Positions 20,086-23,779 of a stretch of 64,000 nucleotides of DNA are shown piece after piece (position 1 is the first letter of the stretch; each line of letters opens with the position of its first letter). The stretch is from the NCBI GenBank assembly GCA_022483245.1, contig JAKVNR010000001.1, positions 186,001-250,000 of the forward strand, written 5' to 3'. Under the pieces are notes generated by a model. That model ran no database searches and had not been told where the DNA came from. It was given only the letters and a program-made list of their open reading frames with translations. The position numbers were made by a program, and so were the translations under genes. Source of the stretch: Lactobacillus sp. (GTDB lineage Bacteria > Bacillota > Bacilli > Lactobacillales > Lactobacillaceae).

Positions 20086-21126
20086 ATGCAGCGTGAAGGC
20101 AACCGGATCGTGCGGGTCATCCGCGGCCGCCGGCCACGAGTAGTGGTCATTGGTGGCGGGACCGGCTTACCGGTTATTTTGAAAGCATTGCGGAAGCGTA
20201 ACGCTGATATTACGGCAATTGTCACGGTTGCTGATGATGGCGGCTCTTCTGGCGCTTTGCGCAATTATATCAATGTTGTTCCACCAGGTGATATCCGTAA
20301 CGTCTTAGTCTCACTGGCCGATTTGACACCAGAGGAAAAGGGCATCTTTCAGTATCGTTTTCAGTCGTCAGATAAATTTTTTGCTGGGCATGCGATTGGC
20401 AACCTAATTATTGCTGCTTTAAATGAAATGAAAGGCAATATTTTTGACGCGGTGCAATCTCTGTCAAAAATGATGCGAGTTGATGGCCACGTTTTTCCCG
20501 CTTCCAATGAACCATTAACTTTAAATGCTGAATTTATGGATGGAACTCAGCAAGCCGGTGAAACTGAAATAGCTAAGGCTGATAAGCAAATCAAACGGGT
20601 CTGGGTAACGGATAGCGATTCCCACCAAGAGCCGCAAAGTTTGCTCCCTGTTTTGGCCAGCGTGATGCAAGCCGATGTGGTTGTGTTGGGGCCAGGTAGT
20701 TTATTTACTTCGATTTTGCCTAACTTGATGATTAAAAATTTGGGTCAAGCAGTACGGGAAACTCAGGCAGAAGTTATCTATATTTGCAATATCATGACTC
20801 AAAAGGGCGAAACGGATCATTTTACTGATGCAGACCATGTGCGCGTGATTAATCAGCACTTGGGTGGTGACTATATCAATACCGCGCTAGTTAACGGACA
20901 GGCTGTTGATATGAGCCGCTTTGACCAGACAAAATCTGATAAGTATATCGAACCTGTGCGTCACGACTTTAATGGTCTGCGTGATCAGCATTGCCGTGTG
21001 ATTATGAATGACTTTTTAGACCAACGTGACGGGCTAGTTTTCCATAACGGTGAGCGCGTCGCTAAAGAAATATTGAATCTTGCGTTTGAATCTTATTGCC
21101 GGAGAAAATTAACATATTATGACTAG
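20086..21126 (+). CDS. yvcK: YvcK-type gluconeogenesis/cell-shape factor
   Basis: UDP-sugar-binding protein of the CofD-like family, 346 residues. In Bacillus it is needed for growth on gluconeogenic carbon and, through peptidoglycan precursor supply, for cell shape. Seen: [18 protein letters not shown] (nucleotide-binding loop), [41 protein letters not shown] and [14 protein letters not shown]. It is embedded between rapZ and whiA, overlapping whiA by 8 bases. Confidence 0.95.
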
Positions 21127-22057
21127 CTATGCAGCTAAAGTAAAAAAAGAATTAACTTCGCTGACAGTTCATCCAGCCCATGCAAAGGCTGAATTGTCGG
21201 CTTTTTTGCGGATGAATGGTGTCTTGCACTTACACGATGGACAAATCAGCTTAGACATTACGACTGAAAATCCAGCCATTGCTCGGCGCATTTTTTCGTT
21301 AATTAAATTAGCTTATCAAGTAGAGCCGCTCCTGATTGTGTCGCGTAAAATGAAGCTGAAGAAGAATATTCAGTTTTTGGTACGACTGCAAGAACGGCTA
21401 CCGGAAATTTTAAATGACCTATCGATTTGGACCGAGGATGAAGGCGTCATCACTGGTGTACCTAAACAAATTAAAGAATCACAAACTCTGGCCATGTCGT
21501 ACTTACGGGGAGCTTTTTTAGCTGGCGGGAGTGTCAATAATCCTGAAACGTCACGTTATCATCTGGAAATTTATTCACTTTATGAAGACCATAACGCTGA
21601 TCTAGCTTATTTGATGGATCACCATTTTGGCTTGAATGCTAAAACTACTAAACGCCGCAGTGGTTATATCGTTTACCTAAAAGAGGCCGAAAAAATAGGC
21701 GATTTTTTGCATATTATAGGCGCTGTGAATGCCATGCTGGCCTTTGAAGATTTGCGAATTATGCGAGACATGCGTAATTCAGTTAATCGACTAGTTAATT
21801 GCGACACAGCTAACTTGAAAAAAACCGCGACAGCTGCCGCGCGGCAAGTACAAGATATCCAATTGATTGCTGAGCAGACTGGTTTAGACAAATTGCCACC
21901 TAAGTTAGAAGTATTAGCTCGCTTCCGGCTTGATCATCCGGAATTGTCTTTGAAAGAATTGGCGGCCCAGGTACCTGATGGTCCGATTTCTAAGTCGGGT
22001 GTCAATCACCGTTTTAAAAAATTGCATGATCTAGCACAAGAATTGCGCAAACAATAA
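21119..22057 (+). CDS. whiA: WhiA DNA-binding protein
   Basis: Regulator combining a LAGLIDADG-like N-terminal domain with a C-terminal helix-turn-helix. In Streptomyces it controls sporulation division genes; in Bacillus it affects cell division and chromosome segregation. Length 312 residues. The start [15 protein letters not shown], the segment [16 protein letters not shown], and the C-terminal [20 protein letters not shown] followed by HRFKKL are typical. It is last in the rapZ operon; no terminator is clear before the ABC-F promoter, which overlaps the end of whiA. Confidence 0.95.
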
Positions 22058-22071
22058 TTTCATGCTATATT
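22043..22071 (+). promoter_or_regulatory. Promoter of the ABC-F leader
   Basis: TTGCGC at 22043-22048, 17-bp spacer, TGC extension and TATATT at 22066-22071. The -35 lies in the last codons of whiA. Transcription would begin near 22078, giving a leader of about 200 bases before the ABC-F start. Confidence 0.65.
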
Positions 22072-22105
22072 GATAACGATTTAAATTGAGAAAGAAGGAA
22101 GTCCA

Positions 22106-22117
22106 TTGCGTTTTTAA
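22106..22117 (+). CDS. Leader mini-ORF 1 (fMet-Arg-Phe-stop)
   Basis: TTG CGT TTT TAA, with the Shine-Dalgarno sequence AAGGAAG six bases upstream. It is a three-codon reading frame in the ABC-F leader. Its stop region (22114-22122) is complementary to 22174-22182, just after mini-ORF 2. Assigned as a regulatory peptide by inference. Confidence 0.5.
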   Translation: MRF

Positions 22118-22162
22118 CTTGCCAAAATATTGCAGAGTCGAACTTAGAAATAGGGGAGGACT

Positions 22163-22174
22163 ATGCACTTTTAG
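22163..22174 (+). CDS. Leader mini-ORF 2 (Met-His-Phe-stop)
   Basis: ATG CAC TTT TAG after the strong purine site AGGGGAGGA. Ten bases of this frame (22164-22173) are perfectly complementary to the right arm of the downstream terminator. Translation of the frame would therefore prevent that pairing. Confidence 0.55.
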   Translation: MHF

Positions 22175-22260
22175 CAAGTTGATGATGCAGCGCTCTTTCT
22201 AACAGACCTAGTGGGCTAAGAAAAAACGTCTGTACTTGTTAAAAGTGCAGACGTTTTTTT
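22164..22260 (+). promoter_or_regulatory. Terminator/antiterminator attenuator of the ABC-F gene
   Basis: The terminator stem is 22227-22237 with 22243-22253 (11 pairs, one G-U) plus a run of seven T ending at 22260. Competing pairings are 22164-22173 (TGCACTTTTA) with 22240-22249 (TAAAAGTGCA), and 22202-22207 (ACAGAC) with 22228-22233 (GTCTGT). Both arms of the terminator thus have an upstream rival strand. The ABC-F ribosome binding site TTAGGAGTG follows at 22263. Confidence 0.75.
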
Positions 22261-22279
22261 ATTTAGGAGTGAAGTCACA

Positions 22280-23779
22280 GTGGGTCAAATTAAACTAACA
22301 AATTTATCTTTTCGTTACGCTAATCAAAGTCAAAATTTATTTAATCACCTGAATGCAAATTTAGATACTAGTTGGAAATTAGGCTTAGTCGGCCGCAATG
22401 GACGAGGGAAAACTACTTTATTGAATTTGCTGCGAGGTAAACTGCAGGGGACAGGCCAAATTATCAGTGCCAATAATTTGGCCTATTTTCCAGCAAAAAT
22501 CGCCGATCCAACTAATCTGACTTATAGTGAGTTGCTTGAAGTGGCTGAAACAGAGCTATGGAAAATTCAGCGGGAATTAAATTTGATGCAAGTTGACGAT
22601 CAACTGCTTTGGCGCCCATTTGCTAGTTTGAGCGGCGGGGAGCAGACTAAGGTTTTGCTAGCGTTAGCTTTTGCTGATGAAACTAGTTTTCCGCTGCTAG
22701 ATGAGCCCACCAATCATTTGGATCAACCTAGCCGGCAGCAAATTGCTAATTATTTGCGGAAAAAACGGACAGGTTATGTTGTGGTCAGCCATGATCGTGA
22801 ATTCTTAAATCGGACTACCGATCACATCTTAGCGATTGAACAAACTGAAATTCATGTTTACCAAGGAAATTTTGCCAGTTACGAATTGACTAAACAGCGG
22901 CGTGATCAAGAGAATCAGAGTAAAAATAGCAAACTGCAACGTGAAATTAGCGAGTTGAATGAAAGCCGGCAGCGTATTAAGGGCTACTCTGATAAGGCTG
23001 AAAAAGAAAAATATGCCGGTGCTCATCAGAATGAACAAGTTTTGCATATTAATCGCGGCTTTTACAGTCACAAGGCTGCTAAGATCATGAAACGATCTAA
23101 AAATGCTGAGCGACGCATGAATGAACAAATCGAAGCAAAAGAAGGGCTGCTGACTAATATTGAACATGCGCCAGCTTTGACAATTAATTTCACGCCGGAT
23201 TATCATCAGGAATTGCTGCGGTTAGATCACTTTGGCTTAACGATTGCAGATGAGCAAGATTTATTTAAACAAGTGAATTTAACTGTTAAAAATCATGGGG
23301 TCGTCGCCTTAACTGGCCCCAATGGGACCGGTAAGACAACCCTGCTGCGGTACTTATTGGGTCAGCGCGATGAGTTGAAAGCTAGTGGGCAATTGACCCA
23401 AGTTGATAAATTGCAACTATCATATTTGCCACAACAGTTTGATGATTATACTGGTACACTGCAAGAATTCGCGGCGACATATCATTTATCATATTCAGAA
23501 TTGCTTAATAATTTGAAAAAAATGGGATTTCCGCGTGCTAGTTTTACTACCCCGATTGAAGAAATGAGCCTAGGCCAGCAAAAGCGGGTCGCACTTGCTA
23601 AATCACTAGTGGAGCCAGCTAATCTTTATTTCTGGGATGAACCAGCTAATTATTTAGATGTATTTAACCAGGATCAATTAATAAATTTGCTTAAAGAGGC
23701 CCAACCGGCCATGATTTTAGTAGAACACGATCCACACTTTGTCGAAGAGGTTGCCAGTACGGTGGCGCAATTAGGATAA
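22280..23779 (+). CDS. ABC-F family ATPase, probable ribosome protection (Lsa-like) type
   Basis: Cytosolic protein with two ABC ATPase domains and no membrane domain, 499 residues. Domain 1: Walker A GRNGRGKT (about 39-46), LSGGE near 117, Walker B LLDEPTNHLD near 140. A charged linker (about 190-310) is rich in Lys, Glu and Gln. Domain 2: GPNGTGKT near 346, a degenerate signature MSLGQQKR near 430, and FWDEPANYLDVFNQ near 452. Linker length, the LGQQ signature and the leader resemble antibiotic-resistance ABC-F proteins of the Lsa/Vga group, which displace lincosamides, streptogramin A and pleuromutilins. A housekeeping ABC-F role cannot be excluded. The start is GTG with AGGAGTG upstream. 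Confidence 0.85.
   Translation: MGQIKLTNLSFRYANQSQNLFNHLNANLDTSWKLGLVGRNGRGKTTLLNLLRGKLQGTGQIISANNLAYFPAKIADPTNLTYSELLEVAETELWKIQRELNLMQVDDQLLWRPFASLSGGEQTKVLLALAFADETSFPLLDEPTNHLDQPSRQQIANYLRKKRTGYVVVSHDREFLNRTTDHILAIEQTEIHVYQGNFASYELTKQRRDQENQSKNSKLQREISELNESRQRIKGYSDKAEKEKYAGAHQNEQVLHINRGFYSHKAAKIMKRSKNAERRMNEQIEAKEGLLTNIEHAPALTINFTPDYHQELLRLDHFGLTIADEQDLFKQVNLTVKNHGVVALTGPNGTGKTTLLRYLLGQRDELKASGQLTQVDKLQLSYLPQQFDDYTGTLQEFAATYHLSYSELLNNLKKMGFPRASFTTPIEEMSLGQQKRVALAKSLVEPANLYFWDEPANYLDVFNQDQLINLLKEAQPAMILVEHDPHFVEEVASTVAQLG

Follow-up and report, generated by a model that had tools for sequence, protein, structure and literature searches.

What does a pair of reading frames of three codons each, followed by a strong hairpin, do in front of a gene for antibiotic resistance? 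The question is raised by a locus in Lactobacillus sp. (assembly GCA_022483245.1, contig JAKVNR010000001.1, positions 186,001 to 250,000, hereafter the window, meaning the whole stretch of 64,000 nucleotides (nt) that was analysed), which belongs to a 1.56 Mb genome held in a single contig. All the features described below lie on the forward (+) strand and are given in window coordinates. The gene in question (22280..23779, GTG start at 22280) encodes an Lsa-like ribosome-protection protein of the ABC-F family, 499 amino acids long. The leader in front of it is very probably a ribosome-mediated transcription attenuator, and we consider it likely that it makes the gene drug-inducible by way of a single sensor, the first of its two upstream open reading frames (uORFs).

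The first frame, uORF1 (22106..22117), reads TTG CGT TTT TAA (M-R-F) and follows the Shine-Dalgarno (SD) sequence GAAAGAAGGA (22090..22099), whose duplex with the anti-SD is worth -6.2 kcal/mol. The second, mini-ORF 2 or uORF2 (22163..22174), reads ATG CAC TTT TAG (M-H-F) and stands behind an SD-like purine run, AGGGGAGG (SD2, 22152..22159), so that the two start codons are 57 nt apart. Both frames, each with its SD and its peptide, are present as an earlier note on this DNA had described them, and so is a terminator before the GTG, which folding places at 22220..22260 (the predicted intrinsic terminator T2). The terminator-bearing stretch 22180-22262 folds better than its shuffles (z = -5.0), and the leader as a whole (22078-22282) reaches -68.6 kcal/mol against -43.9 for shuffles (sd 3.75; z = -6.6), none of 200 shuffles being as good. 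A consensus terminator scan listed no terminator in the leader, and probably missed T2 because most of its T's fall within the long stem. Upstream of T2, the folds give a large hairpin, SL1 (22093..22200), that carries uORF1 in its 5' arm, SD2 in its apical part and the antiterminator strand (22164..22179) in its 3' arm, and that would serve as an anti-antiterminator. The pairing of 22114-22122 with 22174-22182, another observation of the earlier note, consists of 8 Watson-Crick pairs and one G-U. The antiterminator strand is predicted to pair with 22234-22249 when uORF1 is occupied; within it, TGCACTTTTA (22164-22173) complements TAAAAGTGCA (22240-22249) at every base, which is the ten-base match between mini-ORF 2 and the right arm of T2 that had first been noticed.

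This arrangement suggests how the switch may work. Without drug, ribosomes would pass through the three codons of uORF1 immediately, SL1 would close over the frame and sequester 22164-22179, T2 would form and RNA polymerase would stop before the gene. A drug that freezes ribosomes just after initiation (likely a lincosamide, pleuromutilin or streptogramin A, drug classes that we propose from the ABC-F family and because stalls at the start codon are reported for relatives) would stall a ribosome on uORF1. By covering the 5' arm of SL1, the stalled ribosome would free the strand 22164-22179, which could then pair with the T2 loop and right arm as these leave the polymerase; with T2 blocked, the protection protein would be made. 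The protein would in turn clear the ribosomes and so switch itself off.

Conservation of uORF1 was examined in a comparative set built on the ABC-F protein, which is found in 42 of 75 genomes of the genus (55 places, E <= 1e-100) and, at E <= 1e-90, in 203 of 397 genomes of the family and 127 of 395 of the order, draws that overlap. The set comprises 173 upstream regions: all 55 genus places, 7 more, 31 family or order loci, and 80 of the more than 200 places listed. Of 53 genus upstreams, 48 have a uORF1 at this position, beginning M-R in 47 and M-L-L in one; the five without it include one region cut to 59 nt by a contig end (L011). Two genus upstreams outside the 53 carry M-K-F and an unclear frame (L032 and L035). 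The 48 leaders amount to 45 distinct sequences, 41 of them with a frame of three codons and the others with 2, 6, 6 and 7. The second codon is kept as CGT in the genus, where it is fully paired in 17 of 36 folds, partly in 16 and unpaired in 3. Its retention despite incomplete pairing points to a constraint from coding or initiation besides that from pairing.

Beyond the genus the frame recurs in diverged form. In an order-wide test for an SD, a frame of two to three codons and downstream pairing, applied to 168 distinct upstreams (two short ones and three duplicates removed), 133 passed, against a mean of 6.5 and a maximum of 12 over 20 rounds of shuffling. Candidates were picked by pairing energy, and the peptide tallies are approximate because the picks are sometimes mini-ORF 2 (15 of 43 in the genus, 14 M-H-F and one M-Y-F) or an overlapping two-codon frame a few bases upstream (M-R or M-H, 25 of 90 outside it). 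With that latitude (13 of the 67 Lys or Arg picks are the overlapping frame), the 90 picks outside the genus have 42 Lys and 25 Arg at codon 2, encoded by several different codons; together these make 67/90 against a fraction of 0.18 in shuffles. These counts suggest that uORF1 is the probable drug sensor. Outside-genus leaders (L030-L034, L090-L108, L149-L159) frequently have TTG uORFs; codon 2 is AAA, AAG or AGA in 54 of 90 picks. A motif resembling AAGGGAGCAGTGTGCAGATTTTCAGGATTGG recurs in many of these leaders. Within the genus, a motif like ATCAATTGAAAT occurs near the presumed transcription start, behind the presumed -10, in many leaders though not in the window.

The pairings of the proposed switch co-vary as well. 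Given the weak column-wise fold described below, co-variation was scored without alignment columns, each arm being matched with its own partner and with that of every other leader. The SL1 arms bind their own partner at -41.2 kcal/mol and others at -31.9 (36 leaders), and the antiterminator strand binds its own T2 (loop and right arm) at -14.8 kcal/mol and others at -10.6 (25 distinct strands); neither difference was reached in 20000 permutations, counts that relatedness inflates and that are no probabilities, since related leaders are not independent. A terminator loop requires no such match, and the fit to its own T2 is therefore good evidence for an antiterminator. The match holds even in widely diverged leaders, for example L071 and L074, where the own T2 ranks first for the antiterminator strand. 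The earlier note had suggested looking for the mini-ORFs and pairing arms among relatives, and the comparison did not refute its attenuator. A second lock that it had proposed fared less well: ACAGAC (22202-22207) is indeed complementary to the left arm of T2, but the longest match averages 4.26 within leaders and 4.30 in mismatched pairs (31 leaders), with no enrichment.

The order in which the alternative folds win depends on where a ribosome sits. We modelled a ribosome footprint from -15 to +15 with 37 C energy rules in the 31 leaders that have T2, letting its right arm emerge stepwise. With uORF1 masked, the antiterminator outweighs T2 in all 31 leaders at 3, 6 and 9 nt of exposed right arm; in the window it reaches 16 bp if the 5' arm of T2 is also held open. 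In unmasked leaders the antiterminator leads in 3 of 31 cases at 6 nt; at 9 and at 12 nt it leads in no case and T2 in all 31. The footprint folding that the earlier note had envisaged thus bears out its expectation for the first frame, at least early in the emergence of the right arm; a mask on mini-ORF 2 has the opposite effect and favours T2.

Several results weigh against transcription attenuation by a single sensor. Even with uORF1 masked, the antiterminator is ahead in only 13 of 31 leaders by the time 12 nt of the right arm have emerged. Under that mask T2 is the stabler fold in 9 of the 11 leaders folded at full length, and in the window the equilibrium difference is about 12 kcal/mol (T2 -42.6, antiterminator -30.3). 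The switch must therefore be won kinetically: since the segment with which the antiterminator pairs starts in the T2 loop, the antiterminator would enter the race ahead. The co-variation is uneven: for SL1 the own partner ranks first in only 10 of 36 leaders and as low as 25 of 36, and for the antiterminator the own-partner ranks fall to 17 of 25; in both comparisons many leaders place another leader's partner above their own. RNAalifold on a MAFFT alignment of the 36 leaders recovers six pairs at -0.94 kcal/mol, a weak consensus that in our opinion reflects lower stems sliding in register. No uORF passes the order-wide test in 35 of the 168 leaders; some of these have longer or weaker ones, and some, upstream of the Lsa-like copies L013, L041, L058 and L078, gave no candidate, these copies having perhaps been relocated and come under different control. 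The promoter, too, is poorly defined. The earlier note's promoter is readable as a putative element at 22043..22071, with an extended -10 (TGcTATATT, 22063-22071, that is, TG-N-TATATT) to which comparable sequences can be seen by eye at the equivalent place in many relatives. Its -35 (TTGCGC, 22043-22048, 17-nt spacer) matches at 3 of 6 positions, however, and a consensus promoter scan found none in the leader, the predicted promoter being weak. Finally, in cplR, the closest parallel by peptide, the authors report an essential uORF stall but dispensable premature termination, and describe the control as translational attenuation (PMC10201436, in the portion of that paper used here); with that gene controlled mainly at translation, the level of control here could differ.

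If uORF1 is the sensor, what is mini-ORF 2? An SD2-like run is present in 30 of 36 genus leaders (3.9 expected, sd 1.7) and a start codon behind it in 32 (23 ATG, 8 GTG, 1 TTG). The frame that follows has three codons in only 15 of the 32, the others extending over 6 to 39 codons or past the end of the sequence examined. The four leaders without the start codon (L015, L024, L074 and L076) each retain an upper stem in their own fold. Outside the genus, 94 leaders with a TTG uORF include 67 with an SD-like run (34.9 expected) and 50 with a start codon behind it (21.7 expected); as 17 of the 67 runs have no start codon, the G-rich run outlasts it. Judged from these sequence patterns, mini-ORF 2 is likeliest to be chiefly the antiterminator strand together with a conserved purine element. 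A role for SD2 as an antiterminator strand against a U-tract is plausible by hand in some leaders, but the SD-like run is also kept in 4 of the 5 leaders that lack T2.

The conserved landing site could also act as a brake, an addition compatible with sensing by uORF1. A ribosome at the ATG at 22163 would cover the antiterminator strand, T2 would form and expression would be vetoed, such that a response would require an occupied uORF1 together with an empty site 2. The excess of SD2-like runs and start codons in the genus speaks for it, and so does the folding: with uORF2 masked T2 leads in 29 of 31 leaders at 9 nt and in all 31 at 12 nt, and with both frames masked in 25 and 28 of 31, respectively. 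A ribosome on mini-ORF 2 covers the antiterminator strand and folding then gives the terminator; in this model, a stall there would close the gene rather than open it. Access to the site is doubtful, however, because every one of the 36 free folds pairs at least part of the start codon (or its equivalent) and 31 pair all of it, and the start codon is dispensed with in the four genus leaders and the 17 outside-genus runs mentioned above. It is also hard to see the use of closing a resistance gene at high drug. We regard the brake as possible, with the odds clearly against it. Slightly less probable still is the fuller scheme of two landing sites of opposite sign, in which a stall at uORF1 would open one or two terminators and site 2 would reclose T2, making the leader a non-monotonic, window-type sensor rather than a plain on-switch; it would read drug level, or how many ribosomes are stalled relative to those initiating.

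The earlier note had instead taken the tandem mini-ORFs as equivalent parts of a two-stage sensor, a stall on either one raising expression. Its attenuator of the ABC-F gene is supported by the uORF, the terminator and the co-varying pairings, but the equivalence of the frames is not: where T2 is present a ribosome on mini-ORF 2 yields T2 and not the antiterminator, and the second frame keeps its three codons in fewer than half of the leaders that have its start. An SD and a start codon at both sites in most of the 36 genus leaders do favour two stages, and two leaders without T2 (L027 and L061) retain M-H-F; in these, a stall at either site should open SL1. In the Streptomyces are5sc leader, which also has two three-codon uORFs, toeprinting shows only the first to be translated, as far as the consulted part of that report goes (PMC12421871). 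Taken together, a two-stage sensor appears improbable. An attenuator of the trp or his kind, responding to starvation for Arg or Phe, is more improbable again: of the 48 genus leaders with uORF1, 47 have Arg as the second residue, but the frames, mostly three codons long, hold no series of regulatory codons, the gene downstream encodes a ribosome-protection protein, and outside the genus Lys is commoner than Arg at this position and either is specified by several codons. The least credible reading is a ligand-binding riboswitch or protein-bound leader. The large conserved structure would speak for it, as would a 2010 scan that (in the part available) suggested such for a lactobacillus 'ABC-leader' that is perhaps this element and perhaps another (PMC2965389). 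Against it, conservation is strongest in a short reading frame and the SD belonging to it, and no Rfam family reaches its gathering score in the leader; the best match below that level is Thr_leader (25.8 bits, E 0.0053, where the gathering score is 55), and it matches the other strand too.

Sensing by uORF1 may extend to a second terminator in relatives of the window. Counting at least 6 T of 8 as a U-tract, we found one behind SL1 in at most 28 of the 36 leaders, an upper figure because the tract of L028 is not directly behind the hairpin; the window has none. T2 forms a hairpin better than -10 kcal/mol in 31 of the 36, L076 narrowly missing at -9.6. By these thresholds five leaders have the SL1 U-tract only, eight (the window among them) T2 only, and none lacks both. 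From sequence, SL1 itself would be a terminator in the relatives that have the tract. The 3' arm of the first terminator would there become the antiterminator of the second, and one stalled ribosome would open both. The five leaders that keep the SL1 U-tract and have no T2 above the threshold (L015, L024, L027, L061 and L076) are natural one-terminator versions.

The gene that this leader precedes belongs to the ribosome-protecting ABC-F proteins, since its product passes the cutoff of the corresponding model (NF000355, 442.8 bits, cutoff 380). Against the Lsa model it scores 593 bits, below the cutoff of 750 (NF000167), and we therefore name it Lsa-like and do not assign it to Lsa. The closest solved structure is LsaA, Lsa(A) (7nhk, E 1.9e-141), and the nearest named relatives are Lactobacillus records. 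The gene's own SD, read from the sequence as AGGAG (22265..22269), lies outside the T2 stem. An ORF at 21119-22057 that resembles whiA precedes the gene. Five genomes (G006, G016, G031, G089 and G095) contain two or three Lsa-like paralogs with 55-60% identity to the window protein, and the leader is present at all 11 of these places. Genes 61-62% identical occur on plasmids of L. amylovorus, Ligilactobacillus salivarius and Limosilactobacillus reuteri (including the matches H2 and H3). The L. amylovorus plasmid copy (L189, NC_017472.1 52712-54202) has a full leader, with an M-R-L uORF1, site 2 and T2; the attenuator can thus travel on plasmids.

What emerges is a predicted and comparatively tested drug sensor for Lsa-like genes across Lactobacillus, including one plasmid copy, with a diverged form of the leader in other Lactobacillales. 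The hosts are bacteria of food and the gut, where tests run without drug can easily overlook inducible resistance. The recurrence of a minimal M-(R/K)-X-stop uORF in widely diverged leaders bears on how such short frames stall ribosomes, and the comparative set makes testable the role of a conserved ribosome-binding site inside an antiterminator strand.

How does the leader compare with known systems? We found no description of this Lactobacillus leader in a literature search that left most subscription journals outside; the 2010 scan reports, in the part consulted, an attenuator before a 'multidrug export system operon' in L. gasseri and L. johnsonii that is perhaps this element and perhaps another (PMC2965389). 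The type of switch is already known, and a second ribosome-landing site within the switching strand is what is added here, with no claim of priority. The comparisons that follow refer to the parts of the cited papers on which we drew. The Lsa-type ABC-F protein LsaA likewise has a very short uORF, but the consensus published from close LsaA homologues is M-A-G-N (PMC10201436), whereas the Lsa-like leaders described here mostly encode M-R-X or M-K-X from a TTG start. The authors of the mefA/msrD study call two serial attenuators on an ABC-F gene a double lock; there, unlike in the window, a macrolide-sensing peptide of six residues stalls at the stop codon and the two attenuators are separate (PMC10314930). 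The are5sc leader of Streptomyces (M-L-V and M-R-S) resembles the window in having two three-codon uORFs, the first with a TTG start, before an ABC-F gene, and in its stalls by the expected drug classes; its uORFs overlap, while those of the window are well separated and the second lies in the antiterminator strand (PMC12421871). cplR of Clostridioides difficile (M-R-[I/M]) shares the M-R-X pattern, a 5' hairpin that hides the uORF and a terminator hairpin before the ABC-F gene, yet its terminator hairpin also hides the SD of the gene, which that of the window does not, and the protein is of a different ABC-F subfamily (PMC10201436). In vmlR of Bacillus subtilis, a three-codon uORF (M-I-N) lies in an anti-antiterminator hairpin and comes with an antiterminator and an intrinsic terminator before an ABC-F gene; expression was abolished there when the uORF lost its start codon or SD, which backs the same mechanism experimentally (PMC9226507). 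vmlR has an SD-sequestering hairpin as well (PMC9226507). The window differs from it in the TTG start, in the M-R-F peptide and in the second ribosome-binding site in the antiterminator strand, and its relatives differ further in the probable extra terminator formed by the uORF hairpin itself.

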